64,000 bases of DNA from Methylobacterium organophilum. Lineage in GTDB: Bacteria; Pseudomonadota; Alphaproteobacteria; Rhizobiales; Beijerinckiaceae. Below, piece by piece: positions 755 through 53,380 of the stretch (position 1 is its first letter; every line of letters begins with the position of its first letter). The notes under the pieces are model-generated. The model saw only the letters and a program-made list of their open reading frames with translations, was not told the DNA's origin and ran no database searches. Both the position numbers and the translations under genes were made by a program. The stretch is from positions 211,189-275,188 of the forward strand of contig NZ_BPQV01000007.1 in assembly GCF_022179465.1 (NCBI RefSeq). Direction: 5' to 3'.

Positions 755-773
755 GCGCGCCTCCTGAGAGACA

Positions 774-799
774 AACCGGGCATTGGTTCTGCCGGTTCC
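774..799 (-). promoter_or_regulatory. weak candidate EcfG-type promoter of the 69-aa gene
   Basis: On the minus strand GGAAC is followed after 17 bases by GGTT. The alphaproteobacterial general-stress sigma factor EcfG prefers GGAAC-N16/17-CGTT, so one base of the -10 part differs. The site lies about 20 bases before the start codon of the small gene, which would leave a very short leader. A chance match is quite possible. Confidence 0.25.
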
Positions 800-6243: not shown

Positions 6244-8191
<1,948 letters not shown>

Positions 8192-8577
8192 CGCCGTGGC
8201 TCTCCCAAGTCCGTTGGTGTCGATCCGGTGGCCCCGAGGGGCCGATCCGAGGGCCTCAGCGTGGCCGCGACCGTTCTTTTAGTCAACTGGATTGTTCTTT
8301 TTAAAGAACGAAGCTCGAGAGGACGATTGCGCCATCCGGGCGGCGGTCCGGGAAGAAATCCTTCGCTCGATCGTCCGGGAGCGGTGCCGGCGATTCCCGC
8401 GCCTCGACGCACCGCCGCGCCGTTTGCGAGACCCGCCGCGGCGGCCGGCGAAGAGGTGGGCCGGATTAAAGCCGTGCGCCGAACGTGCCGGGGCGTGATT
8501 GTCTTGGCCCGGGCCGCCGAACGTTGATAGCGTCGTGCAGGAGTGGCCCGCTTCGAGGCCACAGGGAGGAAAACCGC
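8192..8577. other. divergent intergenic region, groES / OFA transporter
   Basis: 386 bases between the two divergent starts. The middle is AT-rich relative to the surroundings and carries repeated GTTCTTT elements (8273-8309). The plus-strand half ends with GGGAGGA, the ribosome site of the transporter gene. Nothing in it looks coding. Confidence 0.5.
8273..8309. promoter_or_regulatory. GTTCTTT repeats upstream of groES, possible operator
   Basis: GTTCTTT occurs at 8273-8279 and again at 8294-8300, 21 bases (two helical turns) apart. The second copy continues into its inverted partner, giving the perfect palindrome GTTCTTT-TT-AAAGAAC (8294-8309). The site lies about 100 bases before groES and could bind a dimeric regulator of the operon. 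No known regulator could be matched to it. Confidence 0.35.
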
Positions 8578-10242
8578 ATGAGTCTAGGCGTTGCCGACGG
8601 GGTCGGGCATCAGGCGTTCGCCCCGACATGGCTGTCACGGGAGCGCATCGTCGCCAAACCCGGCTTCAACCGATGGCTGGTGCCCCCCGCCGCCCTCGCG
8701 ATCCATCTCTGCATCGGCATGGCCTATGGCCTGTCCGTGTTCTGGCTGCCCCTGTCCCGAGCGCTCAGCGTCGGGCAGCCGGCGCCGGCGAGTTGCCCGG
8801 ACATGAGCGTGCTCACGGCGCTGTTCACCACCCGCTGCGACTGGCGCGTCAGCGACCTCGTCATCGTCTTCTCCATCGGCATCGTCGTGCTCGGCATCTC
8901 GGCGGCCCTGTTCGGCGGCTGGCTCGAACGGGCGGGCCCGCGCAAGGCGGGCGTGGTGGCCGCGCTCTGCTGGGGCGGCGGCTTCCTGATCGGCGCCCTC
9001 GGCGTCCACCTGCACCAGCTCTGGCTGATCTGGCTCGGCATGGGCCTGATCGGCGGCATCGGGCTGGGGCTCGGCTACATCTCCCCCGTCTCGACGCTGA
9101 TCAAATGGTTCCCCGACCGGCGCGGCATGGCGACCGGCATGGCGATCATGGGCTTCGGCGGCGGCGCGATGATCGGCTCGCCGCTGGCCGACACCCTGAT
9201 CAAGACCTTCCGCAGCCCGGAATCCGCCGGCGTCTGGCAGACCCTCGTCGTGATGAGCATCGGCTACCTGCTGTTCATGCTGGGCGGTGCCTTCGGCTAC
9301 CGCGTGCCGCCGGCCGGCTGGGCCCCGGAGGGCTGGACGCCGCCGGCCGCCAAGAACGCGATGATCGCCTCCGGCCACGTGCATCTGCGCGACGCGCACA
9401 AGACGCCGCAATTCTGGCTGCTCTGGCTGGTGCTCTGCCTCAACGTGTCGGCCGGCATCGGCGTGCTGGCCCTCGCCTCGCCCATGTTGCAGGAGATCTT
9501 CGGCGGCAAGCTGATCAACCTTCCCGAGGTCGGGTTCGGGCAGCTCGACGCCGGGCAGAAGACCCAGGTCGCGGCCATCGCCGCGGGCTTCGTCGGCCTC
9601 CTGTCCCTGTTCAACATCCTCGGCCGCTTCTTCTGGGCCTCGATGTCGGACAAGCTCGGCCGCAAGCTCACCTACGCGATCTTCTTCGGCCTCGGCGTCG
9701 CGCTCTACGCCGCCGCGCCCTGGGCCGCGGGGATCGGCTCGACGGCCCTGTTCGTGGGCTTCTTCTGCGTGATCCTGTCGATGTATGGCGGCGGCTTCGC
9801 CACCATCCCCGCCTATCTCGCCGATGTGTTCGGCACGCAGTTCGTCGGCGCCATCCACGGCCGCCTGCTCACCGCCTGGTCGACGGCGGGCGTGATCGGA
9901 CCGGTCGTCGTCACCGCGATCCGCCAGCATCAGGTCGATGCCGGCGTGACCGGCGTCGATCTCTACGCACGTACGATGTACGTGCTCGCGGTCTTCCTCG
10001 CCGTCGGCTTCGTCTGCAACCTCGCGGTGCGTCCCCTCGCCCGGCGCTGGTTCATGCCGGAGACCGAGGTCGCGGCGCTCGAGGCCAAGGGCAGGACGGG
10101 CGCTGCGACGCGAGGGGGCGCCCAGGGCATCGGCCGCGGCGGCGTCTCGGCCGGCGCGGCCCTGGCCTGGGCCATCGTCGGCATCCCGATCCTCTGGGGC
10201 ATCTGGATCACCCTATCCAAGGCGCTGATCCTGTTCCGCTGA
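8578..10242 (+). CDS. OFA-type MFS transporter (oxalate/formate antiporter family)
   Basis: A 554-residue protein with about twelve membrane segments and the MFS loop-like GLGLGYISPVSTLIKWFPDRRG (around residues 160-180), a hallmark of OxlT-like carriers. It is longer than most members through a loop with a cysteine pair near residues 75-95 and a C-terminal tail. The ATG at 8578 has GGGAGGA six bases upstream. Exchange of small mono- or dicarboxylates is likely, which would suit a C1/C2-metabolising bacterium. The exact substrate is unknown. Confidence 0.85.
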   Translation: MSLGVADGVGHQAFAPTWLSRERIVAKPGFNRWLVPPAALAIHLCIGMAYGLSVFWLPLSRALSVGQPAPASCPDMSVLTALFTTRCDWRVSDLVIVFSIGIVVLGISAALFGGWLERAGPRKAGVVAALCWGGGFLIGALGVHLHQLWLIWLGMGLIGGIGLGLGYISPVSTLIKWFPDRRGMATGMAIMGFGGGAMIGSPLADTLIKTFRSPESAGVWQTLVVMSIGYLLFMLGGAFGYRVPPAGWAPEGWTPPAAKNAMIASGHVHLRDAHKTPQFWLLWLVLCLNVSAGIGVLALASPMLQEIFGGKLINLPEVGFGQLDAGQKTQVAAIAAGFVGLLSLFNILGRFFWASMSDKLGRKLTYAIFFGLGVALYAAAPWAAGIGSTALFVGFFCVILSMYGGGFATIPAYLADVFGTQFVGAIHGRLLTAWSTAGVIGPVVVTAIRQHQVDAGVTGVDLYARTMYVLAVFLAVGFVCNLAVRPLARRWFMPETEVAALEAKGRTGAATRGGAQGIGRGGVSAGAALAWAIVGIPILWGIWITLSKALILFR

Positions 10243-10330
10243 GCGCGGGACTTAGCCCCTCCAAAGCTCGCGCCGCGCCGATGGCGGCGTAGCGCGGGCC
10301 CTGACCTCGCGGGATGTCCCGAAAGCGGCC

Positions 10331-10531
10331 TCAGAGAACGAGGGCCGTCAGGACCGTCGTGACCACGGCGGCCGCGATCGCCAGCGCCAAAGCCTGGAAG
10401 CTGCCAATGCTGCGCTCGCGGGCGGTGTCGGCGACGAGCGCGGGGGATGCTGCGTCGCGCGGCCGCAAGGCCGTCGTCACGCGCTCCTCGCGCACCGTCT
10501 CCACGAAGATCGATTGTATCACCACGGTCAT
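10331..10531 (-). CDS. 66-aa protein with a C-terminal membrane anchor
   Basis: A very small protein: a polar N-terminal part (residues 1-45) and one hydrophobic helix at the end (ALALAIAAAVVTTVLTALVL), so it is probably tail-anchored in the inner membrane. A purine-rich GGGAGAGAG precedes the ATG. A FixK/FNR-type box is centred 65 bases upstream of the start, at the distance expected for an activated promoter. No family recognised. Confidence 0.5.
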   Translation of the reverse strand: MTVVIQSIFVETVREERVTTALRPRDAASPALVADTARERSIGSFQALALAIAAAVVTTVLTALVL

Positions 10532-10589
10532 CGTTCTCTCTCCCGTCCATCCTGACGGGGGCATCCTGCCGGGTCGTCCGGGTGGCACC

Positions 10590-10603
10590 TTGATCCAGCG
10601 CAA
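10590..10603 (-). promoter_or_regulatory. FixK/FNR-type box for the 66-aa gene
   Basis: TTGATCCAGCGCAA matches the alphaproteobacterial FixK consensus TTG(A/C)-N6-(T/G)CAA at every fixed position. It is centred at 10596.5. With a class II arrangement (-41.5) transcription would begin near 10555, leaving a leader of about 24 bases. A matching site for the divergent gene lies 57 bases away. Confidence 0.6.
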
Positions 10604-10646
10604 GGGTCGGCGCCGCGAGTAAGCAGGGCCGCGCGCGGGGCCGGCC

Positions 10647-10660
10647 TTGCGCTGAATCAA
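10647..10660 (+). promoter_or_regulatory. FixK/FNR-type box for the 71-aa gene
   Basis: TTGCGCTGAATCAA also fits TTG(A/C)-N6-(T/G)CAA exactly. It is centred at 10653.5, 64 bases before the ATG at 10718, which mirrors the geometry of the other box. Flanking bases extend it into a GGCCGGCCTTG/CAAGGCCGGCC inverted repeat. Confidence 0.6.
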
Positions 10661-10717
10661 GGCCGGCCGCCCCGATCGCCCACACGCTCCACCGTCTGTC
10701 CGGAACGGAGCCCTGTG

Positions 10718-10933
10718 ATGCGCAGCTACCTCGTCACCTTTCACAAGGTCGTGCCCGATGGGAGCGGCCACGACCGTGCCGTCCTGCAGGGGCGCATGGT
10801 CGTGCGCGCCCGTTCGGACGTCTCGGCCCTCTACGAAGCCAAGGCGCGCTTCTGCCAGGCGATGCGGATCGCGGACTGGCGCCTGCGGGCCGATACCTGC
10901 CGGGCGGTCGAGGTGGCGCGGCTCGTGGCCTGA
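10718..10933 (+). CDS. 71-aa hypothetical protein behind a FixK-type box
   Basis: A small soluble basic protein (MRSYLVTFHKVVPDGSG...) with predicted beta-strand then helix: ALYEAKARFCQAMRIADWRL, then a short tail. An in-frame GTG directly precedes the chosen ATG. It is not recognised. The upstream FixK/FNR-type site suggests induction at low oxygen together with the divergent 66-aa membrane protein. Confidence 0.5.
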   Translation: MRSYLVTFHKVVPDGSGHDRAVLQGRMVVRARSDVSALYEAKARFCQAMRIADWRLRADTCRAVEVARLVA

Positions 10934-11131
10934 CGTGCCCCGCGGTAGGGCTCGGGTTGGCAAAGATCAGAAACAGATAAGCATGCCGCCCGTCTTGGCG
11001 ACTCGTTTACCAATCCAAAGAAGGTCTCGGATCGACGCTGCTCCGCCGGAGCCTTGAGCGTATTCGCTCGCATTTCCTAAAGGATCTCCGGCGAAATTCC
11101 AACGAACTGCACGCGTCGAGAACCGCCTTCC

Positions 11132-14100
11132 ATGAACATGCGTCCCGATCTCGCCTGCCGGAGCATTCTCCGGGGCCGGAAGGATCCGTCGCTCCTGCGT
11201 GACGAGTTGCTGCCGGAGATCGTCTCGGATTCGGCGCGGGCACGCCCGGAGCACATCGCCATCGTGTTCGGCGGGACCCGGATCACCTACGCGGAGCTGG
11301 AGGCCCGGGCGGACCGGGTCGCGCGGGCCCTGCGGGCAAGGGGCGCCGGGCCGGGCCGGTTCGTGGGCCTGTGGATGACCCGCTCCCTCGACCTGCATGT
11401 CGCCCTGCTCGGCATCCTCAAGAGCGGCGCCGCCTACATCCCCTTCGACGCCGACGCGCCGCCGGATAGGATCGGCGAGTGCCTCACGGATTGCGCGGCC
11501 GATCTCCTGATCGTCGACTCCGTGACCGCGGCGAAGCTCGAACGGGCGCCGGCGGCGACGCCCCTCCCCTTCGCGGCCCTGATAGACGAGGGCGGCGCGG
11601 GCGCACCGATCGACCTGCGGGCGCTCGGCCTCACCAACGCTCACCCGGCCTATGCGATCTACACCTCGGGCTCGACGGGCAAGCCCAAAGGCATCGTCAT
11701 CAGCCACGCCAATATCTGTCACTACCTGCGCGCGGCGAACCAAGTCTACGGCATGACCGGGGACGACGTATGCTTCCAAGGCGCGTCGGTCGCCTTCGAT
11801 CTCTCCCTCGAAGAGATCTTCGTCCCCTATCTCGTCGGCGCCACCCTGTGGGTGGCCTCGCCCGCGATCCTCGGCGAGGTCGACGCGCTGCCCGGCGTGA
11901 TGCGGGCGGCCGGGATCACCGTCCTCGACACGGTCCCGACGCTGCTGGCGATGATGCCGGAGGACGTGCCCTCGCTGCGCATCATCATCCTGGGCGGCGA
12001 GGCCTGCCCGCCCGCCGTGCGGCAGCGCTGGTGCCGGCCCGGCCGCACCGTGTTCAACAGCTACGGCCCGACCGAGGCGACCGTGGTCGCCACCGTCGAT
12101 ATCGTCACCCCGGACGCCCCGGTGACGATCGGCGGGCCGATCCCGAACTACACCTGCTACATCGTCACCGAGCAAGGAATTCTGGCCGGCCCGGGCGAGG
12201 AAGGCGAGCTCCTGATCGGCGGCCCGGGCCTGGCCGGCGGCTATCTCGGGCGGCCGGATCTGACGGCCGAGAAATTCATCGCCAACCCCTTCGACCCGGA
12301 GGGGGCTGACCCGGTGCTGTATCGCTCCGGCGACGCCGTGAGCGTCGATCCGGGCGGAAAGATCCTGTTCCACGGCCGCATCGACGATCAAGTCAAGCTG
12401 CGCGGCTTCCGCATCGAGCTCGGCGAGATCGAGGCCCGGCTCTCCACCACCCCGGGCATCGCCCAGGCGGCGGTGGTGGTGCGCCCGGACAACGGCATCG
12501 ACCGGCTCGTCGCCTTCGTGGTGCCGGAGGCGGGCCGGTCCCTCGACCGCGCTGCCCTGCGGGCGGCGCTCAAGGCGCAGCTGCCGCCCTATATGGTGCC
12601 GGCCCATTTCGAGGAGATGGCCGTCCTGCCGCGGCTGACCTCGGGCAAGGCCGACCGCAAGGCCCTGAAGGCGATGGTCCTCCAGGCCGCGGACGAGGCC
12701 GAGGTTCAGGAGGCGCCGCAGACCGCCACCGAGGCCGCCCTGCTCGCGGCGGCCCAGCCACTCTTCCCGGGGCAGGTCCTGGCCTTCGAGGCGGATTTCT
12801 TCAACGATCTCGGCGGCCATTCGCTGCTGGCCGCGCGCTTCCTCGCCGCCGTGCGCGAGACCTCGCGCCTCGCGAGCCTGACCCTGGAGGATGTCTACGG
12901 CCAGCGCAGCCTGCGGGCCATGGCCGCCGCCCTCGACACGCGGATCTCCGACGCGCCGGACGCCGGCCCGGTCGACCTCTCTTTCGAGCCGCCGCCGCGC
13001 ATGCGGCGCCTCCTGTGCGGCCTCGCCCAAGCCGCCTGCCTGCCGCTGCTGCTGCTCGGACGCACAGGGCCGTGGCTGACGATCTTCGTGGTCTACGAGC
13101 TGATCACGACCGACGAGGTCATCCGCTTCCACGAAGTGCTGATGCTTCTGGGCACCTATGCCCTCGTGACCTTCGCCGTCACCGTAGCCGGCATCCTCGG
13201 CAAGCGCGCCGTGCTCTGGCGGGCCAAGCCCGGCCGCTACCCGCTCTGGGGCGTCTATTTCTTTCGCTGGTGGCTCGCCAAGCAGTTCGTCGGCCTGACC
13301 CATCTCTCGCTGATGCAGGGCACGCCGCTCGCCGCCGCGACCATGCGGGCGCTCGGCGCCCGCGTCGGTCGCCGCAGCATCGTCAGCGGCCTCAATGCCG
13401 GGGCGATCGACCTCCTCACCATCGGCGACGACGTGACCCTCGGCGCCAAGCTCAGCGTCGCCAATGCCGAGGTCGTCGGCAACGAGCTGGTCATCGGCCC
13501 GGTGGAGATCCAGTCCGCCGCCTATATCGGCACCTCCTGCGCCATCGGCCACGGGGTGATCATCGAGGAAGGCGCGGAGCTCGGCGACCTCACCGCCATC
13601 CTGCCGGGCACCCGCGTCGGCGCCTTCGAGCATTGGGATGGCTCCCCCGGCCGCCGGGTCGGCGCGGTGGACCCCGCCACATGGCCCGCGCCGGCGCCTG
13701 AGCCCACACGGGCGATGCAGGCCGCCCGGACCGCGTTCTTCGCGCTGATGGTCCTGTTCATGCCGGCCATGGCGCTGCTCCCGGTCTTCCCGGCCTTCTA
13801 CCTGTTCGACCGCTACGACACCGTGCTCCAGGCGCTCGTGGGTCTCGACTACCACTGGTACCTGCCGGTCCTAACCTGGCCGACCGCGATGCTCCTCGTC
13901 TTCGGAACGGCGATGCTCGTCACCGCCATCCGCTGGATCGTCCTGCCCCGCGCGGGAGAGGGTACCCACTCGATCCATTCAGGCTTCTACCTGCGCAAGT
14001 GGACGGTGGGCCTGGCCAGCGACGTGATGCTCGACACGCTGAGCTCGCTCTTCTCCACGGTCTACATGCGCCATTGGTACCGGCTGATGGGCGCCCGGAT

Positions 14101-15139
14101 CGGGCGGGACACCGAGGTCGCCACCAACTTCGCCGGCCGCTACGACACGATCGAGATCGGCGACCATTGCTTCGTGGCCGACGAGGTCGTGGTGGGCGAC
14201 GAGGACATCCGACGCGGCTGGATGACGATCCGCAAGGTGCGCACCGGCTCCCGGGTCTTCATCGGCAACGACGCGGTGCTGCCGCCGGGCACGGACATTC
14301 CCGACGGCTGCCTGATCGGCATCAAGTCGAAGCCTCCGGCCGGAAGCGCCATCGAACCGGGCGACACCTGGTTCGGCAGCCCGCCCCTCCGCCTGCCTGT
14401 GCGCCAGCGCTTCGACGATGCGCAGACCGCGATGACCTTCCGGCCCTCCGCCGGGCGCCGGCTGCTGCGGGCCGTGTTCGAGCTGTTCAGCGCCTCGATG
14501 CCGACGATGATGTTCATCACCCTCGGCACCTACGCCGCGGAATACGTGCTGTTCCCGGCCCTGGAGCACCAGAGCTGGGGCATGTTCCTGGCAATCTTCG
14601 TGGCAACCTGCACGGCCTGCGCGCTGATCCTGGCCGGCGTGGTGCTCGTGCTGAAATGGATCATGATGGGCGTGTACCGGCCCGGCAATCACGGCCTGTG
14701 GTCGTGGTGGGCCCTGCGTACCGAGGCCATGACCACGCTCTACTGGGGCACGGCCGGCGCCATCCTGCTCGACAGCCTCCGCGGCACGGTCCTGCTGCCC
14801 CCGGCCCTGCGCCTGTTCGGCGTAAAGATCGGCCACGGCGTGTTCCTCGACAGCACCGACATCACCGAGTTCGACTGCGTGCGGATCGGCGACCATGCCG
14901 CCATCAACGCCACGGCCAACCTGCAGACCCACCTGTTCGAAGACCGGGTGATGAAGATCGGCCCGATCGAGATCGGGCGAGGCGTCAGCGTCGGCGCCCT
15001 AACCACGGTGCTCTACGACACCCGCGTCGGCGGCCACGCCCGGCTCGGACCGCTCACCATCATAATGAAGGGCGAGGCGATTCCGGCCAACACCCAATGG
15101 GCCGGCGCCCCGGCGCGGCCGATGCAGGCGGCGGCGTGA
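11132..15139 (+). CDS. Pls/PosA-type non-ribosomal peptide synthetase
   Basis: A 1335-residue multidomain protein. Residues ~40-510 are an adenylation domain (YTSGSTGKPKG near 177, NSYGPTEAT near 309). Residues ~530-605 are a carrier domain with LGGHS and phosphopantetheine Ser564. The remainder has about six membrane helices separating three soluble parts with hexapeptide-repeat (left-handed beta-helix) features. This is the layout of the epsilon-poly-lysine synthetase Pls, which has no classical condensation or thioesterase domain. The binding pocket starts FD, so an alpha-amino acid is activated; an acid follows at the 239-equivalent place, which would suit a basic substrate (inference). 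The permease gene overlaps its stop. Confidence 0.85.
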   Translation: MNMRPDLACRSILRGRKDPSLLRDELLPEIVSDSARARPEHIAIVFGGTRITYAELEARADRVARALRARGAGPGRFVGLWMTRSLDLHVALLGILKSGAAYIPFDADAPPDRIGECLTDCAADLLIVDSVTAAKLERAPAATPLPFAALIDEGGAGAPIDLRALGLTNAHPAYAIYTSGSTGKPKGIVISHANICHYLRAANQVYGMTGDDVCFQGASVAFDLSLEEIFVPYLVGATLWVASPAILGEVDALPGVMRAAGITVLDTVPTLLAMMPEDVPSLRIIILGGEACPPAVRQRWCRPGRTVFNSYGPTEATVVATVDIVTPDAPVTIGGPIPNYTCYIVTEQGILAGPGEEGELLIGGPGLAGGYLGRPDLTAEKFIANPFDPEGADPVLYRSGDAVSVDPGGKILFHGRIDDQVKLRGFRIELGEIEARLSTTPGIAQAAVVVRPDNGIDRLVAFVVPEAGRSLDRAALRAALKAQLPPYMVPAHFEEMAVLPRLTSGKADRKALKAMVLQAADEAEVQEAPQTATEAALLAAAQPLFPGQVLAFEADFFNDLGGHSLLAARFLAAVRETSRLASLTLEDVYGQRSLRAMAAALDTRISDAPDAGPVDLSFEPPPRMRRLLCGLAQAACLPLLLLGRTGPWLTIFVVYELITTDEVIRFHEVLMLLGTYALVTFAVTVAGILGKRAVLWRAKPGRYPLWGVYFFRWWLAKQFVGLTHLSLMQGTPLAAATMRALGARVGRRSIVSGLNAGAIDLLTIGDDVTLGAKLSVANAEVVGNELVIGPVEIQSAAYIGTSCAIGHGVIIEEGAELGDLTAILPGTRVGAFEHWDGSPGRRVGAVDPATWPAPAPEPTRAMQAARTAFFALMVLFMPAMALLPVFPAFYLFDRYDTVLQALVGLDYHWYLPVLTWPTAMLLVFGTAMLVTAIRWIVLPRAGEGTHSIHSGFYLRKWTVGLASDVMLDTLSSLFSTVYMRHWYRLMGARIGRDTEVATNFAGRYDTIEIGDHCFVADEVVVGDEDIRRGWMTIRKVRTGSRVFIGNDAVLPPGTDIPDGCLIGIKSKPPAGSAIEPGDTWFGSPPLRLPVRQRFDDAQTAMTFRPSAGRRLLRAVFELFSASMPTMMFITLGTYAAEYVLFPALEHQSWGMFLAIFVATCTACALILAGVVLVLKWIMMGVYRPGNHGLWSWWALRTEAMTTLYWGTAGAILLDSLRGTVLLPPALRLFGVKIGHGVFLDSTDITEFDCVRIGDHAAINATANLQTHLFEDRVMKIGPIEIGRGVSVGALTTVLYDTRVGGHARLGPLTIIMKGEAIPANTQWAGAPARPMQAAA

Positions 15140-16638
15140 CCGCCCTCGCCCCGGCGGCGATCCTGCCCGGCGGAGACGAGGCGCAGGCCGCCACCTCCAA
15201 GGGCAACCCCGCCGCGGGGCCGCGGACGCTGTCGCGCCTCTCCCTCACCACCCTCGTCGTCGGCTCGATGGTCGGCGGCGGGATCTTCTCCCTGCCCCAG
15301 GCCTTCGGCCGTTCCACGGGCGTAATCGGCGCGCTCATCGCCTGGGGCATCGCCGGCCTCGGCATGCTGATGCTGGCCCGGGCGTTCCAGACCCTGGCCG
15401 AGCGCAAGCCGGACCTGGATGCGGGCATCGTCGCCTATGCGCGGGCCGGGTTCGGCCCCTATCTCGGCTTCCTCTCGGCGCTCGGCTACTGGGCGAGCGC
15501 CTTCCTCGGCCTCGTCACCTTCCTGGTGCTGTCGCAATCGACCCTCGGCGCCTTCGTCCCGGCTTTGGGCGAGGGCGACACCCCCGCCGCGGTCGCCGTG
15601 GCCGGCCTGATCCTCTGGGGCGTGCATGCCCTGCTGCTGCGGGGCGTGAAGGAGGCGACCGCCCTCAACACGATCGTCACGGTGGCCAAGATCGTCCCGA
15701 TCGTGGTGTTCCTCGCCGTGGTGGCGGTCGCGTTCCGGCCCGAGGTCTTCGCCGCGAATCTGATCGGCGCACCTGCACTCTCCGGCGGCGACCTGTTCGG
15801 GCAGGTTCGCGGCACACTGCTGATCGTGGTCTTCGTCTTCCTCGGCATCGAGGGGGCGAGCGTGTATTCGCGCTACGCGCGGCGCCGGGAGGACGTGGGA
15901 CAGGCCACGCTCCTCGGCTTCGGGAGCGTGCTCGCCCTGTTCATGCTCGTCACCATCCTGTCCTACGGGATCCTGCCGCGGGCGGAGCTCGCCGCCCTGC
16001 GCAATCCGTCCATGGCCGGTGTGCTGGAGGCCGTGATCGGGCGGCAGGGCGCCATCTTCGTCAGCCTGGGCGTGCTGATCTCGGTGCTCGGCGCCTACCT
16101 GTCCTGGTCGCTGCTGGCCGCGGAGGTTCTCTCGGCCTCGGCCGCGGGCGGGATCATGCCGGCCTTCCTCGGCCGCCAGAACGCCGCCGGCGCGCCCGCC
16201 GCCGCCCTCTGGCTCACCAACGGCGCGGTCTTCGCGGTCCTCCTGGCGACGCTCGCGGCGGAATCCGCCCTGCGCCTGGCGATCGAGCTCACCAGCGCCA
16301 TGAGCCTGCTGCCCTACCTGCTGGTCGGGGCCTACGCCGTGAAGCTCGCCCGCACGGGTGAGGGCTATGCGGGCACAGGCGCGGCAGCCCGACGGGCCGA
16401 TCTGATTGCGGCGGCGCTCGCCACCGGCTACGCCGCCGGTATGCTCTGCGCCGCCGGCCCGAAATACTGGCTCCTCTCGACCCTCATCTACGCGCCGGGG
16501 ACGCTCCTCTTCCTGCAAGCCCGGCGCGAGCAGAGCGCGACGCCCTTCACGGCCGCGGAACGGTGTCTGGCTCTCCTCCTCGGCGCGGCGCTTCTCACGG
16601 CCGTCATAGGCCTGTGCAACGGCGCCATCCGTCTCTGA
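15136..16638 (+). CDS. basic amino acid/polyamine antiporter family permease (ArcD-like)
   Basis: A 500-residue APC-superfamily permease with about twelve membrane segments, starting with the family motif VVGSMVGGGIFSLPQAFG (helix 1). Relatives exchange arginine/ornithine or lysine/cadaverine. The GTG at 15136 overlaps the NRPS stop by 4 bases, implying coupled translation. This is the strongest hint that the NRPS uses, or its product derives from, a basic amino acid. Confidence 0.8.
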   Translation: MTALAPAAILPGGDEAQAATSKGNPAAGPRTLSRLSLTTLVVGSMVGGGIFSLPQAFGRSTGVIGALIAWGIAGLGMLMLARAFQTLAERKPDLDAGIVAYARAGFGPYLGFLSALGYWASAFLGLVTFLVLSQSTLGAFVPALGEGDTPAAVAVAGLILWGVHALLLRGVKEATALNTIVTVAKIVPIVVFLAVVAVAFRPEVFAANLIGAPALSGGDLFGQVRGTLLIVVFVFLGIEGASVYSRYARRREDVGQATLLGFGSVLALFMLVTILSYGILPRAELAALRNPSMAGVLEAVIGRQGAIFVSLGVLISVLGAYLSWSLLAAEVLSASAAGGIMPAFLGRQNAAGAPAAALWLTNGAVFAVLLATLAAESALRLAIELTSAMSLLPYLLVGAYAVKLARTGEGYAGTGAAARRADLIAAALATGYAAGMLCAAGPKYWLLSTLIYAPGTLLFLQARREQSATPFTAAERCLALLLGAALLTAVIGLCNGAIRL

Positions 16639-16652
16639 CGCCGGCGGCCCCG

Positions 16653-18092
16653 ATGATCCCGCACATACCCCGCCTCGCTCCAGCCTGGTCTCCCCTCGCC
16701 CTGCTCGCCTGCCTCCTCGGCGGCACGCCGGTCCAGGCGCAGATCGCCGCCCCGATCGCCGACCTCCTCGACACCACCCAGCCGGAGACGAATCCCCGGA
16801 TCGCCCAGCGCGGGGAGGATCCTGTCCGCACCGGCCCGCTCGCGGCTTGGGCCACGGACCTCGCCGCCCACGGCCTGAGCTTCGACGTCAACGCCTACGA
16901 CTTCTATTCCGCCAACCCCACCCTCGGCCTGCGCCCAGGCCAGCAGGCGAATGCCGCCTATCTCGTGCTGAGCATGAGCGCGGACCTGCAGCGGCTCGCC
17001 GGAATCGAGGGGGGCACGCTCAACTTCACACAAAGCTTCTTCGGGTTCGTGCGCAACCTCAACATAGCCAACGCCATCGGCGACAGCACGTCGGGCTTCC
17101 TGGCGCCCTACAATCCGAATGCGAGCCGCCTCTCCCTGCTGACCTACCAGCAGCGCCTCCTCGACGACCGGCTGGTCCTGGAGATCGGACGGACACATCC
17201 CGACCGCTACTATGTGCTGCCCCCCTGCGGGACGGTCAATTCCTGCTACCAGGATCTGCTCGTGCTCAATGCGGGCTGGACCTCGAGCCTCTACGGGGTC
17301 TGGGGCGGCAACGCCGCCTATCAGCTCTCGCCGAGCACCTATGTCCAGGCCGGCGCCTTCAGCGTGAACCCCAACACCAACTGGCTCAACGGATACGAAT
17401 GGGGCTCCGAGTGGATCGCGGGCGCCGTCGTCATGACCGAGATGGGGCTGAAGACGGATTACGCCGTCGATCCCTATCCCCGGCGGTTCTCCCTGACCGG
17501 CTTCGTGAACACCGCCGACCACGACGACAGTGTCCGGACGGTCGCGGGCTTCATGAAGAATTTCTGGCCCGGCACGCCGACGCCGCAGAAATCCGGCACC
17601 TCCGGCCTCGTCCTGACGGCGAGCCGGACGATCTGGCGTGCCGACGGGGGCCGGGAGGCGGGAGACCTCCATCCCACGGCTCTCACCCTCTACGCGAGCG
17701 CCGGCTACGCCTTCGACGCGACGATCCCGGTGCGCTTCAACGGCTTCGTCGGCCTGCTGCTCGCGGGCCCCGACCGCAGCCGGCCCGAGGACACCTACGG
17801 CATCAAGTTCAACTGGCAGCGCCTGAACGACAGCTACGCGATCTTCCTGGGGGACACCAACTTCTTCGCGGACGGCACGGGGCAACCCTACCCCCGCAAC
17901 AAGTTCGTGATCGAGGCCAACGCCCATTTCGAGCTGGGCCAGGGCGTCGCCGTCGAACCCGTGCTTCAATACGTCGTCAACGCGAACTCGTTCTACGAGC
18001 CCTACACGGCCCGCCGGGCACGGGACGGCGTCTATCTCGGCGCTTCCCTCGTCGTTCCCATCGGGACGATGCTCGGCCTCGCCGCCGAATAG
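16653..18092 (+). CDS. OprB-type carbohydrate-selective porin family
   Basis: A 479-residue outer-membrane protein with a signal peptide ending near AQA (residues ~20-30), then alternating polar/hydrophobic beta-strands. Motifs such as GLSFDVNAYDFYSANP and YGIKFNWQRLND fit the OprB family. It begins 14 bases after the permease stop, so it probably belongs to the NRPS unit as an outer-membrane route for substrate or product. The ATG at 16653 is the first one giving a good signal peptide. OprB members differ in specificity. Confidence 0.75.
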   Translation: MIPHIPRLAPAWSPLALLACLLGGTPVQAQIAAPIADLLDTTQPETNPRIAQRGEDPVRTGPLAAWATDLAAHGLSFDVNAYDFYSANPTLGLRPGQQANAAYLVLSMSADLQRLAGIEGGTLNFTQSFFGFVRNLNIANAIGDSTSGFLAPYNPNASRLSLLTYQQRLLDDRLVLEIGRTHPDRYYVLPPCGTVNSCYQDLLVLNAGWTSSLYGVWGGNAAYQLSPSTYVQAGAFSVNPNTNWLNGYEWGSEWIAGAVVMTEMGLKTDYAVDPYPRRFSLTGFVNTADHDDSVRTVAGFMKNFWPGTPTPQKSGTSGLVLTASRTIWRADGGREAGDLHPTALTLYASAGYAFDATIPVRFNGFVGLLLAGPDRSRPEDTYGIKFNWQRLNDSYAIFLGDTNFFADGTGQPYPRNKFVIEANAHFELGQGVAVEPVLQYVVNANSFYEPYTARRARDGVYLGASLVVPIGTMLGLAAE

Positions 18093-18259
18093 GGACGACG
18101 CGCGGTCGGCCGCGCCGTTCTCCTGTCCGGCAACAAGAAAGTCCGCAGGCGCCGCATCGCCGAGGCGCGTTATCGACCCGGCGGGACGCTTTCACGCCTG
18201 ACCATGCGCAACTGCGGTGCGGTTCAGATCCTGAAAGGGGAGAAAGACTGAGAGATGAT

Positions 18260-18303
18260 TGGCTGGGGGACGTGGATTCGAACCACGACTAACGGAGTCA
18301 GAG
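18260..18303 (-). tRNA. 3'-half of tRNA-Gln(CUG), attachment-site remnant
   Basis: On the minus strand this reads from an anticodon loop CTCTGAC through a 3' anticodon-stem strand, a 4-base variable loop, a perfect T-arm (CGTGG-TTCGAAT-CCACG), TCCCCCA and GCCA. The 5' partner of the anticodon stem is absent: upstream bases do not pair. It is therefore not a working gene but the core repeat left when an element integrates into a tRNA-Gln 3' end. The intact gene should be at the far right end of the island. Confidence 0.8.
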
Positions 18304-18439
18304 TCACATTTTAATTCAATTTTATCAATAACTTAGCCATGAAGCGCCCGTCTAAACACGCGGCAATTCATTGAGAAATTCGAGAAAATGTCTAACGAAA
18401 GCGCTTGATTTTCGCGCCCTCACACCGGCGAGGACCACG

Positions 18440-18646
18440 GTGGCGGACGAGTCGCCCAACGAGTTCTTCAAGCGCTACCTTGAGGCGGCGGAGCCCGGGC
18501 TGCCGGAGCGCTATCGCAATCCGAGGCGCCCACGACCTCAACCCGCACCGTTTCTCTTCCGGGCCGTTCTGCGGATGATGAAGCTCATCAATGCTCAGTC
18601 GGTCGGGATTTTAAAATTTCTCCGAAGATATATCCAATTTCGATAA
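18440..18646 (+). CDS. 68-aa hypothetical protein at island edge
   Basis: The GTG start is preceded by GAGGA. The first part (DESPNEFFKRYLEAAEPGLPERYRN split by charged helices) looks protein-like, while the C-terminal end is basic and hydrophobic. No family recognised. It could be the head of a truncated gene because the reading quality drops after residue 45. Confidence 0.25.
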   Translation: MADESPNEFFKRYLEAAEPGLPERYRNPRRPRPQPAPFLFRAVLRMMKLINAQSVGILKFLRRYIQFR

Positions 18647-18732
18647 GTATTTTTTCAGACGCTTGGCCGAGGCCATGCAGGCAGCCACTGGCGAGAGCGT
18701 CGAGATCGCCCGCTCAACTCGCAGACAGTTCA

Positions 18733-18745
18733 TAACAGCCTCTAG
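18733..18745. repeat. solo remnant of an IS5-type terminus
   Basis: TAACAGCCTCTAG is identical to the outer 9 bases of the right end of the IS at 22884-23735 plus its CTAG target duplicate. Inward of these bases the two diverge. It looks like a scar of an earlier copy of the same element lost by deletion. Confidence 0.4.
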
Positions 18746-19039
18746 TCATTCAGCGTGCCGAACGGGTGCTCCATCCAATTGCCCCGTGCGCTTCCGGGAA
18801 GGAGTGAATCATGCCAAGTTCGGCCACGCCGCGGACTTTTTCAATAGCCTGTTAGGTGTCTGCTAAGCACAGAGACGCGGACGCAATCAGGGCGATCAAC
18901 CGTGACGGTTCTCAGAATGATGTCAATCTAGAAGGAAAAGTCATCGACACATCACGACCTGAGATCCTCGCGACAGTATCGTCGTTGACCGATCCGCGGC
19001 CTCATCATCGAAGGGCCGCTCTGCCGTCTGTGCTCGAGG

Positions 19040-19651
19040 CTATCTGGAAGGCATGCAGAATTCGGATGTGAGACCGGCGAAGGCCGACTGGAGGAAGGCG
19101 TCCAAGGGGTGGTCGCCTCCTGCCTGAATCCACGCCTCTATCGCCAGACGCATCGCACCGAGTGACGCCATCGCAACGAGGCGCAGGGAGGCGCTGCGGG
19201 CAGGATCCGGCCATCGTTCAACGAGCACGGCATGCAAGGCTTGTTCATGCAGGTTGTAAGTCGCCTGCTTTCGGGCCCTGAGAGCCTCGTTCGACCGCAA
19301 GACACGGTCGATGCTGATGAACTCCTGAGTGCGGAAGCCTGCTGAGAGCTTCAACAGGGCATCGCGAACCACCTCGAATGGCACCTTGCCTGCCGGCTGG
19401 GCCAGCACCGCCTTGTGCAGTGACGCATTGAAACCCCGCATCTGCCAATCCAGCAGGATCTCTTCCTTCGATTTGAAGTAGTAGAAGAACATTCGTCGCG
19501 AGATGCCGGCTGCCTCAGCGATGGCGTCCAAGGTCGTCGCCTCGTAGCCGTTCTGACTGAAGAGTCTCAGACCGGCCTCGGCGATCCGCTCCAGCGTCTC
19601 CTGACGCTTTCGTGCCCGAAGGCCATCAGACTTCGATGTGGGGCTTGTCAT
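19040..19651 (-). CDS. TetR family transcriptional regulator
   Basis: A 203-residue regulator. The N-terminal helix-turn-helix is clear (TLDAIAEAAGISRRMFFYYF, about residues 34-53), followed by an all-helical ligand domain. The ATG at 19651 gives the usual short arm before the HTH; an upstream in-frame ATG lies nearer the operator. It is divergent from the SDR gene, and a long palindrome between them is the likely operator. It probably represses itself and the SDR gene until a small hydrophobic ligand binds. Confidence 0.85.
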   Translation of the reverse strand: MTSPTSKSDGLRARKRQETLERIAEAGLRLFSQNGYEATTLDAIAEAAGISRRMFFYYFKSKEEILLDWQMRGFNASLHKAVLAQPAGKVPFEVVRDALLKLSAGFRTQEFISIDRVLRSNEALRARKQATYNLHEQALHAVLVERWPDPARSASLRLVAMASLGAMRLAIEAWIQAGGDHPLDAFLQSAFAGLTSEFCMPSR

Positions 19652-19681
19652 GCGCTCGTTCTCGCATGTGATTCCGCACTT

Positions 19682-19731
19682 GCAAAGTTGCACTCGGTGC
19701 GAATATATCTTCGCACCGAGTGCAACTTTGC
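19682..19731. promoter_or_regulatory. 50-bp palindromic operator between tetR and SDR gene
   Basis: Two perfect 22-bp arms (19682-19703 and 19710-19731) flank the spacer TATATC. Each arm contains TTGCACTCGGTGCGAA, itself nearly palindromic (GCAC-TCG-GTGC). This amounts to two operator copies in inverted order, enough for two TetR dimers. The AT-rich centre could serve as a shared -10 region. Confidence 0.7.
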
Positions 19732-19753
19732 GCGGTCAATGGAGTATCCTCGA

Positions 19754-20668
19754 ATGTCTGGCTGGACCCTTGCCGATCTGCCATCACAGGCAGGGTCGGT
19801 CGCCATCGTGACGGGGACTGGCGGCCTGGGCTTCGAGGTTGCACTCGCGCTGACGCGCGCCGGCAGTGAGGTGATCCTTGCCGGTCGCAACTCTGACAAG
19901 GGCGCGCACGCCGTCATGATCATTCGGCAGCAGGTGCCGGGCGCACGGGTCGGCTTCGAGATCCTGAACCTTGCCAGCCTTACTTCCGTGGCCGCCTTCG
20001 CGAAGCGGATGAAGGCACGTCACAGCCGGATCGATCTCCTGATCAACAACGCCGCCGTGATGAGCCTACCGACGCGCCAGCTTTCAAGCGACGGCTACGA
20101 GTTGCAGTTCGCCACGAACTATCTCGGACACTTCGCTCTCACCGCTCACCTGTTGCCGCTTCTGCGTGAGGCTCGGATGCCGCGCGTCGTTACGCTGTCC
20201 AGCGTTGCTGCTCGTGGTGGCAGGATCGCCTTCGACGATTTGCAGGCAGAGCGTGCCTATCGACCGATGGCGGTCTACAGTCAGTCCAAGCTTGCCTGCC
20301 TGATCTTCGCACGCGAACTGCAGCGCCGCAGCAACGCGAATGGCTGGGGGCTGACGAGTCTGGCGGCACATCCCGGTATCTCGCGGACCGACCTGTTGCC
20401 GAACGGGTCGGGTCGCTGGAGCGCAGCGGGTATGATGCGGACCTACCTGTGGTTCCTGTTCCAGCCGGCCGCGCGAGGTGCGTTGCCAACCCTGTATGCC
20501 GCGACCGCGCCGCTCGCTACGGCAGGTGGATATTATGGTCCGACGCGGCTGGGTGAGACTCGCGGTGCGCCAGGACCCGCCGAAGTTCCTGTCCAGGCTC
20601 AAGATGAAGCCGTCGCGACACGGCTGTGGGCCGTGTCCGAGCAGCTATCCGGCGTGACGTTTCAATAG
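19754..20668 (+). CDS. short-chain dehydrogenase/reductase
   Basis: A 304-residue SDR. The cofactor motif is VTGTGGLGFEVA near residue 18, NNAA lies near 97, the catalytic serine is in TLSSVAARGG, and Y-x3-K is in YSQSK. It should oxidise or reduce a carbonyl/alcohol with NAD(P). Closest in style to the retinol dehydrogenase/protochlorophyllide-like group. The ATG at 19754 has GGAG upstream; the one at 19739 is an alternative. Regulation by the divergent TetR is likely. Confidence 0.85.
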   Translation: MSGWTLADLPSQAGSVAIVTGTGGLGFEVALALTRAGSEVILAGRNSDKGAHAVMIIRQQVPGARVGFEILNLASLTSVAAFAKRMKARHSRIDLLINNAAVMSLPTRQLSSDGYELQFATNYLGHFALTAHLLPLLREARMPRVVTLSSVAARGGRIAFDDLQAERAYRPMAVYSQSKLACLIFARELQRRSNANGWGLTSLAAHPGISRTDLLPNGSGRWSAAGMMRTYLWFLFQPAARGALPTLYAATAPLATAGGYYGPTRLGETRGAPGPAEVPVQAQDEAVATRLWAVSEQLSGVTFQ

Positions 20669-20816
20669 GTTTCGCCTCTCAAGCTCGCTGCTTTGATCAC
20701 TCGGACACTGAAGCGAGCCGTTGCCGGATACTCGATACGATGGATTTGGGGCTGGCGAGGGAACTGCGAAGCTCTGCCGTTCCCTGCCTCTCCCACTCAC
20801 GCGAAAGCCTCACGCG

Positions 20817-21869
20817 ATGATCGATTTCCCCGGTATGAAAGCACCTCGGCAGCCGCTGAACCGCCGCCAGGTCGGTTCCCTGCTGCTGGGTGCCGCGGCG
20901 GCAGGAGTGACGCACACGGCGCTCGCACGGCCTCGCGTGGAGGACGTACGCGTCGTTGACTTCGATTGGATTGACGGCGACCGCGCGCGTCCGGTGCCGG
21001 TGCGCCTCTACTGGCCCAACACGTCGTCACGACGGGGCCCAGTTCCGCTGGTCGTGTTTTCTCACGGCCTTGGGCAATCCCGCACGGGCTATAGCTACCT
21101 TGGCCGGCACTGGTCTTCCCGCGGCGTCGCCAGCCTGCACCTGCAGCATGTCGGCAGCGACACCTCTATCTGGACCGGCAATCCGTTGGCCTTATTCGAC
21201 CGGATCGATACGGCGGCGCAGGAGCAAGAGGCCCTTGCACGGGCACGCGACCTACGCTTCGCTCTCGACCGCTTGCTGATCCAGGATGGCGGCGCCTTCG
21301 GAGATCGCATCGACTCGCGTCGGATCGTTGCGGCGGGACACTCCTACGGTGCCAACACGACGCTGATCGCGGCGGGCGCCCGAGTGTTTCGTGAAGGACG
21401 GGTCCTTCAATGTCGGGACCCGCGCATCAAAGCCGGCATCGTGATCTCGGCACCACCATTCTATGGCGAGCGCGACCTGCGGTCCGTCTTGGGCGCGGTG
21501 GAGATCCCGACCCTGCACGTGACGGCAACGGAGGATATCATCCAATTGCCAGGCCGCATCTCGCCGGTCAGCGACCGCCTCGATGTGTACGAGGCCATCG
21601 CGACCACTCGGAAGGTGCTGGCAGTCTTTCAAGGCGGATCGCACAGCATCTTCACCGACCGGCCCATGACCGGCGGCGTGATCCTGAACCCGCAGGTCAA
21701 GGAGGCGACTGCGTCCGCTGCACTGGCCTTCTTGGACCTCGCGCTTCGGGATGAGCCGGAACCGCTGCGCGCATGGTCGGCAACGTGGAGGCCGATCCTC
21801 GCCGTCGCACCCGTAGGCTTTGAAACTGCGTCGAGGTCGCGACCATCAGTGTCGTCTCGCGGAACCTAG
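20817..21869 (+). CDS. Tat-exported alpha/beta hydrolase
   Basis: A 350-residue hydrolase. Residues ~15-40 form a twin-arginine signal (LNRRQVGSLLLGAAAAG). The mature domain has an oxyanion segment (VVFSHGLGQSRTGY) and the nucleophile elbow GHSYG. The likely acid is in TATEDIIQL and the histidine in GGSHSIF. It resembles the dienelactone-hydrolase/PAF-acetylhydrolase-like group and should act on esters in the periplasm. The ATG at 20817 starts the signal peptide. Confidence 0.75.
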   Translation: MIDFPGMKAPRQPLNRRQVGSLLLGAAAAGVTHTALARPRVEDVRVVDFDWIDGDRARPVPVRLYWPNTSSRRGPVPLVVFSHGLGQSRTGYSYLGRHWSSRGVASLHLQHVGSDTSIWTGNPLALFDRIDTAAQEQEALARARDLRFALDRLLIQDGGAFGDRIDSRRIVAAGHSYGANTTLIAAGARVFREGRVLQCRDPRIKAGIVISAPPFYGERDLRSVLGAVEIPTLHVTATEDIIQLPGRISPVSDRLDVYEAIATTRKVLAVFQGGSHSIFTDRPMTGGVILNPQVKEATASAALAFLDLALRDEPEPLRAWSATWRPILAVAPVGFETASRSRPSVSSRGT

Positions 21870-22071
21870 AACCGGATGCGACACGACCCTGCTCAACCCC
21901 AGAAAGGATCGTGAGCGTTCCGAGCTGTGGCGTGCGCTGCGCGACCTGACCTTCCTCCACGAGGTCGGGTTCGACGGCCTCGACAGGCCCGAAATCGCCG
22001 TCGCCGTGGAGGTTCTGCGCACCGCCACAGGGCGACTCACCAAACGCGCGGGCACGGGGGTGGACCCATGA
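21820..22071 (+). CDS. small hypothetical reading frame before the epimerase
   Basis: The frame ends in TGA inside ATGA, overlapping the epimerase start, which is how coupled genes look. It has only a TTG start at 21820 inside the hydrolase 3' end. The predicted chain (TTLLNPRKDRERSELWRALR region) is helical. It may be the decayed C-terminus of a regulator rather than a gene. Confidence 0.25.
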   Translation: MKLRRGRDHQCRLAEPRTGCDTTLLNPRKDRERSELWRALRDLTFLHEVGFDGLDRPEIAVAVEVLRTATGRLTKRAGTGVDP

Positions 22072-22883
22072 CGATTTTGTTGACCGGAGCGACCGGCTTG
22101 GTTGGCGCGCGGCTCTTGCCGCGCTTGCTGGACGCCGGGCTGGATTGTCGCGCACTGATACGGGGCAGCGGTTACACGCAAGCCGGGGCGACAACGGTTC
22201 TGGGCGATCTCTTCGCTGATGCCTCTCTTGTAGACGCAGTGCAGGGCATCACGGCCGTCGTCCATCTCGCGGCGAGCTTCCGCACGCTCGATACGGATCT
22301 GGTCTGGCGCAGCAACCTCGACGGGACACGCAACCTCGTCGCCGCCGTGCGGATCAACGCGCCTGAGGCACGGTTCATCATGGCCAGCACGACCAACGTC
22401 TACGGCGCAAATAGCGTGCATCCCGGGCGAGAGGAGGACACCGTCGCTCCCGAGGCTGCGTACCCGGCCAGCAAGCTCGCGGCCGAGCAGACCTTGCGCG
22501 ATAGCGGGCTGAATTGGTCGATATTGCGACTGGGCTTCGTCTACGGGGATGGCGACGGTCATCTGGAGGACCTGCCCAAGCACGTCCCGAGGTTCGGATG
22601 GCATCCCGCTCAGAGGATGAGCACAGTCCATCACCGCGATGTCGCCACCGCCGTACTGATCGCATTACGAGGCGGGATGGATCGGCGCACCGTCAACATC
22701 GTCGACGATGCCCCGCTGTCGATCTACGAACTGGTGACATTGGCCGGCGGGAATATGGAGCCGTCGGCGGCGCTGCTCGAGAACCCTTGGAACATGCAGG
22801 CCGATGGGACCTTGGCCCGCAGTCTGGGCTTCCAGCCGGTGGTCCGAACGATCTACCAAGCGGTCGCGCAGGGTTTGCTCTAG
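22068..22883 (+). CDS. NAD(P)-dependent epimerase/dehydratase
   Basis: A 271-residue extended-SDR protein. The N-terminal glycine motif is TGATGLVG (residues 6-13), and the active-site tyrosine and lysine are in YPASK. It probably acts on a sugar nucleotide or similar carbonyl substrate. The stop codon TAG lies within the CTAG duplicated by the adjacent IS, so the insertion occurred precisely at the end of the gene and would not have altered the protein. Confidence 0.8.
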   Translation: MTILLTGATGLVGARLLPRLLDAGLDCRALIRGSGYTQAGATTVLGDLFADASLVDAVQGITAVVHLAASFRTLDTDLVWRSNLDGTRNLVAAVRINAPEARFIMASTTNVYGANSVHPGREEDTVAPEAAYPASKLAAEQTLRDSGLNWSILRLGFVYGDGDGHLEDLPKHVPRFGWHPAQRMSTVHHRDVATAVLIALRGGMDRRTVNIVDDAPLSIYELVTLAGGNMEPSAALLENPWNMQADGTLARSLGFQPVVRTIYQAVAQGLL

Positions 22884-23735
22884 AGGCTGTTACGGACCTG
22901 GGGAGGCGCCAGTTTTGCAGGGATGCAGTCCCGCCGCGCCTACCCCTCCGATGTCAGCGATGAAGAATGGGCTCTGGTCGCCCCTTACCTGACGCTGCTG
23001 CCTGAGACCGCTGCCCAGCGCGAGCATAGCCTGCGGGAGGTGTTCAACGGGCTGCGCTACGTCGTGCGCTATGGTGTGGCTTGGCGTGCGATGCCCCACG
23101 ATCTGCCGCCCTGACACGCCGTGTATGACCAGGCGCAACGCTGGCTGCGGGCCGGCTGCTTCGAGACTCTGGTCCACGACCTGCGCGCCGTGTTGCGCTT
23201 GGCTTCGGGGCGTGCCGAGGAACCCTCCGCCGTGGTGCTCGACAGCCGGACGCTCCGCTCGACGCCCGAGAGCGGCGCTCGTGCCGCCTGGGACGGGCAC
23301 AAGCGCACCCGTGGCTCGAAGCCGCACGCGGCGGTCGATACGCTCGGCCAAGTCCTGGCACTCCATGTCACGCCCGCCGATGCCGATGACCGCGCCGCCG
23401 TGGCCGCGCTGGCCGACGCCGTGCAGGAGGCAACCGGCGACAGCGTGGATCTCGCCTATGTCGATCAGGGCTATACGGGCGAGCGTGCCGCGAAGGCGGC
23501 GGCCGGTCACGGGATTGCCTTGGAGGTGGTGAAGCTGCCCGAGGCCAAGCGCGGCTTCGTCCTTTTACCACGCCGATGGGTGGTCGAGCGCACCTTCGCC
23601 TGGATGGCCCGCTTCCGCCGCTTGGCCCGCGACTACGAACGCTTGCCCGCCACACTGGCCGGACTGCATCTCGTCGCCTTCAGCGTCCTACTCCTACGCT
23701 AGAGCCGCTGACTTCGCAGCGGTCCGTAACAGCCT
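22884..23735 (+). mobile_element. IS5-family insertion sequence, 852 bp
   Basis: Both ends carry the perfect 15-bp inverted repeat AGGCTGTTACGGACC. The element is flanked by CTAG on each side, matching the YTAR-type duplication of the IS5 group. The transposase frame fills it but has a premature stop, so the copy is probably inactive unless helped in trans. Confidence 0.85.
22923..23702 (+). pseudogene. IS5-family transposase interrupted by in-frame TGA
   Basis: The frame starts RRAYPSDVSDEEWALVAPYL, continues to MPHDLPP, hits TGA at 23112-23114, and resumes in the same frame with [12 protein letters not shown]. Relatives have PPW-HAVYDQ, so a tryptophan TGG has become TGA. The DDE residues remain: [14 protein letters not shown] and [14 protein letters not shown]. 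Apart from this base the gene looks intact, so the mutation is recent. Confidence 0.85.
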
Positions 23736-23736
23736 C

Positions 23737-24347
23737 TAGATCGCCCGAGGGCGGTCTGCCTTCCGGACGCGCCCGACGGTTTGTGGAGATCCATCCGGGA
23801 GCAGACATTGCAGAGCGGCTGCCTATGCTCAAGGTGCTCACCCGGGGCGTCGCGCTCGTCATCGGTGGTCAGGAGTACAGGTATTGCCTTCTTAGGGACT
23901 TGCCCACCTCTCTCTTTGACTCCGTCGTCCGGAAGATGTGGAGCTAGTCCGTTGTCTCGCAATCCTTGATCTTGCCGACCAAGGTCAAACCCTTGGGGGA
24001 TCCCAGCTTTCAGCCGCCTCCGACCCCTTCCGGACCTTCGATCCTGCCGGCCCAGATGTCCGTTCTGTAGGAAGAGGCGGACCTGTAGGCGGCCGCCATG
24101 GCACCACCATGTCGTGGCTCATAATCATGCGGAGGTCTATGCTTTAGGATGCGAGCGGCGCGCTACCCTGAGCCCGGCTGCCAAGAAGGGTTGTCCGGCC
24201 GATTTTACCATTTCGGATCCCAGCAGCCGCGACGGCAACGACGACGGCGGCGCCGACGATGACATGGACGCAGGTCAACCGCAGCTGATGGTCCCAGTGC
24301 TGAAGCCAAGGCGCGGCTAAAAGTCAGGCTCCGACCACAGTCTGAGC
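23737..24347. other. 611-base stretch without a convincing gene
   Basis: Only short frames occur. The best (GTG at 23783 to TAG at 23947) encodes 54 residues ending SLFDSVVRKMWS and may be a gene fragment. The rest shows no ribosome site with a protein-like frame. Probably insertion debris between the IS and the stress cluster. Confidence 0.4.
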
Positions 24348-45473: not shown

Positions 45474-45476
45474 GGC

Positions 45477-48249: not shown

Positions 48250-48272
48250 GGCGATGTCCTACGGTGTCGGGA

Positions 48273-50846: not shown

Positions 50847-50857
50847 GGCTCAGCCTC

Positions 50858-51300: not shown

Positions 51301-51431
51301 GGATCCTGCTTCAGGCTGGAGGACGGGCTGGGCGGCGCGCGGGGATGGGCAGTCCGGATGCTCTCACGGCTGCACCGGGGAATCCGGCGCGCCGACGAGG
51401 CCCGCGAAAATTTCGCAGGCTTGAGCGCGGG

Positions 51432-53377: not shown

Positions 53378-53380
53378 GGC

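Follow-up and report, generated by a model that had tools for sequence, protein, structure and literature searches.

We analysed a 64,000-nucleotide stretch of the genome of Methylobacterium organophilum (the window; the genome that carries it, G000, is 5.06 Mb and belongs to the Methylobacterium/Methylorubrum group), in which a gene for a Pls/PosA-family synthetase is followed head to tail by genes for a basic amino acid antiporter and an outer-membrane porin. We propose, with a probability of roughly 0.5, that the locus combines a cationic diamino-acid homopolymer synthetase, the monomer of which is probably ornithine, with a recruited ArcD-type exchanger of that monomer and a small-solute porin. 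The genome has two full Pls/PosA genes, and the copy in the window is the accessory second one.

The operon is genuine: its genes are tightly packed, and it is conserved in part (Table 1). The GTG start of the antiporter gene at 15136 overlaps the TGA stop of the synthetase gene (15137-15139), and the ATG of the porin gene at 16653 stands 14 bases past the antiporter TGA, which confirms by direct reading the junctions given in an earlier annotation made from the letters alone (the sequence-only reading). Between the three genes, a consensus scan covering 10200-19100 detected neither a promoter-like nor a terminator-like site; it returned one of each behind the porin, a number no higher than in shuffled sequence. 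The operon arrangement claimed earlier holds, and the three genes would be read as a single transcript. A second genome of the genus, G231 (locus L077), repeats the gene order with tight junctions, at amino acid identities of 84, 80 and 69% for synthetase, antiporter and porin. Ratios of non-synonymous to synonymous substitution rates (dN/dS, NG86) between the two loci are 0.23, 0.27 and 0.32, indicating purifying selection on all three genes, and dS is of like order for each (0.45, 0.51 and 0.64). Because order and tight junctions recur and all three genes are under purifying selection, the arrangement is not due to chance.

Table 1. Features of the three-gene unit, in positions of the window unless residues are given
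Feature	Position	Strand	Basis
Pls/PosA-family synthetase (type 2)	11132..15139	+	1335 amino acids; open reading frame read directly
Synthetase domains	Residues: adenylation (A) domain ~33-506; carrier domain ~547-601 (Ser in GGHS); membrane/beta-helix polymerisation domain ~625-1335		Profile matches and structural model
APC-family basic amino acid antiporter (ArcD-type)	15136..16638	+	GTG start; TIGR00905 match and place in tree
OprB-family outer-membrane porin	16653..18092	+	PF04966 match; N-terminal signal peptide by inspection only

The synthetase matches TIGR02353 (NRPS_term_dom) at 533.5 bits over residues 633-1328 (cut-off, 423.1), and Pfam places AMP-binding at residues 33-372, AMP-binding_C at 432-506 and PP-binding at 547-601; its six Pfam matches include no condensation or thioesterase family. 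These matches bear out the Pls-type adenylation–carrier–membrane layout of the sequence-only reading. The layout is common to Pls, the epsilon-poly-L-lysine synthetase, and an A domain so named (PDB 7wew) matches that of the window. It is also that of PosA, the delta-poly-L-ornithine synthetase of Acinetobacter baumannii, which is likewise from a Gram-negative host; the window synthetase is 39% identical to the A. baumannii record (L157). Eight divergent members of the family, the A. baumannii PosA record among them, share 133 invariant columns (49 in the C-terminal domain), of which the window keeps 127, with four of the six departures in the C-terminal domain.

An AlphaFold model of residues 625-1335, built with 29 sequences, has a mean predicted local distance difference test score (pLDDT) of 85.7 and a predicted TM-score (pTM) of 0.88. 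The predicted fold agrees with the description of PosA in having three pairs of helices and three beta-helices (PMC10522769; here and for the other papers cited, statements refer to the part of the text that was available), and thus has the six membrane helices of the family. Simple hydropathy with a strict threshold recovers four clear membrane segments in the synthetase. No solved structure matched the polymerisation domain by sequence, apart from weak beta-helix matches. A Foldseek search of the PDB gave only partial matches among the best 50 listed, all of them proteins with a left-handed beta-helix and most either acyltransferases or gamma-carbonic-anhydrase-like.

Pocket codes were taken from a MAFFT alignment, with positions anchored on the A-domain motifs of the window; three partial matches (L156, L117 and L083) gave no code. 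Some loci are the same DNA twice (for example, L077 and L119), so that rows, both here and in the invariant-column comparison, do not equal organisms. As a control, the A. baumannii record returned DMEHNGTVSK in the same alignment, which is the published PosA code (PMC10522769). The window has DLEDIGSVVK, as do the type-2 relatives with a readable code. Asp223 and Glu227 fill code positions 1 and 3, as in characterised members of the family including PosA, in which mutants of the equivalent Asp217 and Glu221 had no detectable activity (PMC10522769). The pocket therefore supports the prediction that the A domain activates a basic amino acid.

The window code nevertheless differs from that of PosA. 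At position 2, Ala has been tied to lysine, Gly to beta-lysine and Phe to diaminobutyrate or diaminopropionate (PMC10522769), whereas the window has Leu, which is none of these and is near the Met of PosA in size. Comparison with characterised enzymes, which the sequence-only reading had called for, thus upheld a basic-amino-acid pocket and found neither the PosA code nor a diagnostic residue at position 2. The earlier choice among lysine, ornithine, diaminobutyrate or another substrate is narrowed in this way: ornithine is favoured by analogy, because of the medium-sized Leu at position 2 and the presence of the antiporter. The window belongs practically to a group of Archaea, Rhizobia and Methylobacterium for which DLEDIGTV(T/V/I)K has been printed as a distinct signature that is not assigned a substrate there (PMC10522769), and has Ser in place of Thr at position 7. 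The available main text of that study does not contain the words porin, antiporter or permease, and does not separate core from accessory copies.

Codes elsewhere in the family include DAESIGTVVK in a Kitasatospora copy, which fits Ala for lysine. On a Streptomyces plasmid (L166, 5986-12705), a Pls-family gene with DFECLSAVTK is followed by genes for a diaminobutyrate aminotransferase and an aspartate kinase; the code fits Phe for diaminobutyrate or diaminopropionate, and this is likely to be a poly-diaminobutyrate locus. A Sphingomonas plasmid (L137, 7932-13047) carries a Pls-family gene with the near-PosA code DMEHNGTVTK, followed by genes for a phosphopantetheinyl transferase and a GNAT acetyltransferase, and perhaps represents another poly-ornithine system.

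The antiporter scores 444.5 bits against TIGR00905 (basic amino acid/polyamine antiporter; cut-off, 409.05), which substantiates the family proposed from sequence alone. Its best family match is TIGR03810 (ArcD arginine/ornithine), at 502.4 bits, below the cut-off of 591. ArcD relatives of the APC family exchange single amino acids. In the antiporter tree, the window and G231 proteins fall in a 12-row set with ten deiminase-linked rows (support, 100/100); this tree and that of the porins omit high-scoring segment pairs of less than 300 amino acids, and represent L161 by one piece and L080 by the larger piece only. Among the first related loci read, namely the two best class matches and eight plasmid records (of 123 with an antiporter match), arcA lay in the fetched flank in 10 of 10. 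Order-wide sampling gave a close antiporter copy in 41 of 397 genomes, G000 included, and at one locus read for each other genome arcA stands beside it in 37 of 40 and Pls in none. In the class sample, 19 of 385 genomes match the antiporter with E of 1e-60 or lower, again including G000; two of the other 18 matches (48 and 44% identity) are beside arcA. Across 112 genus, 385 class and 397 order genomes, linkage of the antiporter to Pls was found at just the window and G231 loci. No match to arginine deiminase (PF02274) was found in G000 or in eight other genomes of the genus tested, G231 included. The best reading of the origin of the antiporter is therefore an ArcD relative drawn from arginine-deiminase operons; it differs from ArcD in its sub-cut-off score, its linkage to Pls and the apparent absence of a deiminase from the genome.

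A further difference concerns the substrate site. The position equivalent to Asn101 of AdiC, which hydrogen-bonds the arginine side chain in simulations (PMC4970712), is Leu in both Pls-linked antiporters (Leu126 in the window). In the order-wide sampled rows it is Asn in 45 and Asp in 4 (n = 49), and in the first-read relatives Asn in 13 and Asp in 1 (n = 14 readable rows). The sites of Glu208 and Trp293, reported to be crucial in AdiC (PMC6199258), are kept. With Asn lost at the first site, simple import of arginine is probably no longer what the Pls-linked antiporters do.

The porin scores 133.6 bits against PF04966 (OprB; gathering cut-off, 22.9), and solved Porin B matches it weakly (E, 3e-6). 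Pores of the OprB type are channels for small solutes. The Pls-linked porins group in a single clade (100/100), apart from six free-standing porins, three of which have flanks with a MOSC-domain gene (L126), a DeoR-type regulator (L127), and an FmdA-type amidase and C-N hydrolase (L131). The porin of L131, between amidase and hydrolase, recalls the fmd cluster of Methylophilus, in which the porin FmdC passes urea and short amides (PMC10781810). FmdC and OprB-type porins have PF04966 in common, and the likeness of L131 to FmdC is one of gene context, whereas the Pls-linked porins are a clade of their own; the Pfam name OprB should not be taken as sugar-specific.

The window synthetase represents the rarer of two Pls types in the genus. 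A core copy, 54-59% identical to the window protein, is present in 111 of 112 genomes, and the one genome in which it was missed is 70% complete. In G000, the core copy (DLEDLGTVVK) lies at 8910-12965 of L085 (contig C5). A neighbour from cluster c4 lies close to the core copy in all five congeneric loci read (G000, G231, G008, G188 and G207; L085-L089), and its first residues suggest that it may be a putative histidine phosphatase. The type-2 synthetase occurs in 8 of the 112 genomes and is full length in six (the window, G231, G293, G299, G295 and G200), the other five being 81-84% identical to that of the window. In G300 (L082, 3406-6990) the match is lost after residue 1076, a C-terminal loss, and the copy in G108 (L083, 11694-12746) is a remnant. 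Relatives with 71-74% identity stand at nine further loci, from Bosea, Pseudoroseomonas, Rhizobiales and one metagenome-assembled genome titled Methylobacterium.

The porin gene lies 3' of the type-2 synthetase gene, on the same strand, in six of six full-length loci; the G295 copy is broken into two frames (L080, 5072-6459). Only the window and G231 have the antiporter gene between these two, and elsewhere in the genus it had no match with E of 1e-60 or lower (2 of 112 genomes have it). The synthetase and porin trees branch alike: the window comes first, followed by populi with symbioticum, and variabile with DB0501 and tarhaniae. The synthetase tree was made with a quick method, which warned of long branches among distant rows. 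As the two antiporter loci flank the deepest fork, their antiporters are mutually closest (80%) and dS is alike for the three genes, the ancestor probably already had all three genes together, and the antiporter would have been lost at least twice; transfer of the unit between the two lineages may be an alternative. Called neighbours of the unit differ among the window, G231 and G293 (G299, G200 and G295 share some), and the unit seems therefore to have moved between lineages; these neighbours come from a home-made gene caller and are rough. Related genes upstream of the type-2 synthetase at L077 (14008-14739, with a resolvase domain) and L082 (13130-13849, about 6 kb away) give a possible hint of mobility.

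The mechanism that we infer, from polymer formation to the direction of transport, would be that of an accessory operon that makes and handles a cationic homo-poly(amino acid). The A domain would activate a basic diamino acid, most likely L-ornithine, and load it onto the carrier domain, and the membrane-embedded beta-helix domain would link monomers by side-chain isopeptide bonds, as Pls and PosA do. The antiporter, recruited from arginine-deiminase operons and presumably no longer in arginine catabolism, would act at the inner membrane to exchange the monomer, a precursor or a by-product; small solutes of this cycle would cross the outer membrane through the porin.

Several observations weigh against this reading. 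Asp266, at code position 4, is an extra residue that is absent from the characterised codes in the available part of PMC10522769. The core copies in the genus have almost the code of the window (DLEDLGTVVK in those read), with no antiporter or porin match beside those that were read, and DLEDIGSVVK also occurs in many single copies of other genera in the family; the pocket therefore does not require two transporters. Val1220, one of the four departures from the invariant columns in the C-terminal domain, occupies a site with Pro in 104 of 105 other rows. The antiporter is missing from four of the six full-length type-2 loci, and neither antiporter nor porin had a match in the fetched flanks of the nine more distant loci (at one, L100, only about 560 bases of contig follow the synthetase). 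The antiporter tree flags both Pls-linked rows for deviating amino-acid composition. The closest sampled antiporters (62%) are those at the three order-wide loci that lack arcA, and the genomes of these loci have arcA beside a second antiporter copy; the remaining 16, more distant class matches have no arcA in flanks of up to 1.5 kb. AdiC is a distant model for the antiporter (107 bits), and its Asn101 contact is simulation-based. Finally, ornithine is proposed by analogy, because no enzyme with a DLED code is known to us to have been assayed, and no characterised code known to us equals DLEDIGSVVK.

Synthetases without transporters would also fit an account in which the enzyme polymerises alone and the antiporter and porin are passengers of the cassette with unrelated jobs; PosA itself is a single-gene operon with neither partner (PMC10522769). 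We consider this unlikely, although it is the strongest competitor, given the overlapping and 14-base junctions, a porin at every full-length type-2 locus with a congruent tree, an antiporter family that handles basic amino acids and purifying selection on all three genes. It is less probable still that no long homopolymer is made and that a basic amino acid is instead coupled to another acceptor or built into a very short oligomer, with the antiporter exchanging the free amino acid. The near-universal core copy does suggest a housekeeping role over an antibiotic one, and no product of a DLED-code member is known to us; the window, however, keeps nearly all of the invariant columns. PosA, which has the same layout, yields 7-12-mers in vitro (PMC10522769).

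The sequence-only reading had seen in the gene order a complete route out of the cell for a polymer or an acylated amino acid. There is no evidence for an acylated product, and we rejected polymer export by antiporter and porin as the principal explanation. A product of a Gram-negative cell must cross two membranes, but APC antiporters carry single amino acids and OprB-type pores pass small solutes, and most of the full-length relatives have no antiporter; we hold such a route to be very improbable. Equally hard to credit is arginine as the substrate, with two acidic pocket residues (Glu at position 3 and, next to it, Asp at position 4) clamping the guanidinium and the antiporter importing arginine as its ArcD relatives do, because the Asn101 equivalent is lost and arginine offers no ordinary side-chain amine for isopeptide growth.

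The surroundings of the three-gene unit contain further features. GC content does not distinguish the three genes (0.702, 0.722 and 0.674, compared with 0.69 for window 22884-64000), and no RNA element reached the gathering threshold in window 8000-24000. Directly behind the porin (18260-18305, minus strand), 46 bases are identical to the 3' end of tRNA-Gln(CTG), the gene for which is at C3:25306 of the same genome; the match resembles what is left of an attachment site, the foreign side being on the right. Further on are a subtilase autotransporter of 1314 amino acids (29080-33024, minus strand) and prophage genes with contractile-tail features (43786-61292, minus strand), including baseplate J, a Mu gpP-like hub, a DNA circularisation protein, tail sheath, lambda-type portal and GpA-type terminase. 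Upstream of the type-2 synthetase, the window (8578-10242) and G300 (L082, 11070-12707) have mutually related genes for major facilitator superfamily transporters; the window protein is closest to lactate and oxalate/formate models, yet under their cut-offs.

Cationic homopoly(amino acid)s are antimicrobial. PosA was presented in 2023 as the first synthetase of such a polymer outside Actinomycetes (PMC10522769). The Pls family is not new to the Methylobacterium group, because a 'non-alpha poly-amino acid, epsilon-polylysine-like' cluster has already been tabulated for Methylorubrum extorquens (PMC10353431). We found no description of a Pls–antiporter–porin operon among the literature matches listed, a search that left subscription journals mostly outside. 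A bolder form of our proposal, held tentatively, is that a captured ArcD which lost its arginine-binding Asn became the dedicated monomer exchanger of a new DLED-code synthetase class with its own porin, forming a self-contained and transferable cassette; the monomer may then be new for natural homopolymers. For the large DLED-code group, to which the available part of PMC10522769 assigns no substrate, the recruited antiporter provides a clue to the monomer that is independent and can be tested, and the presence of both a core and an accessory copy in one genus offers a way to ask what these polymers do.

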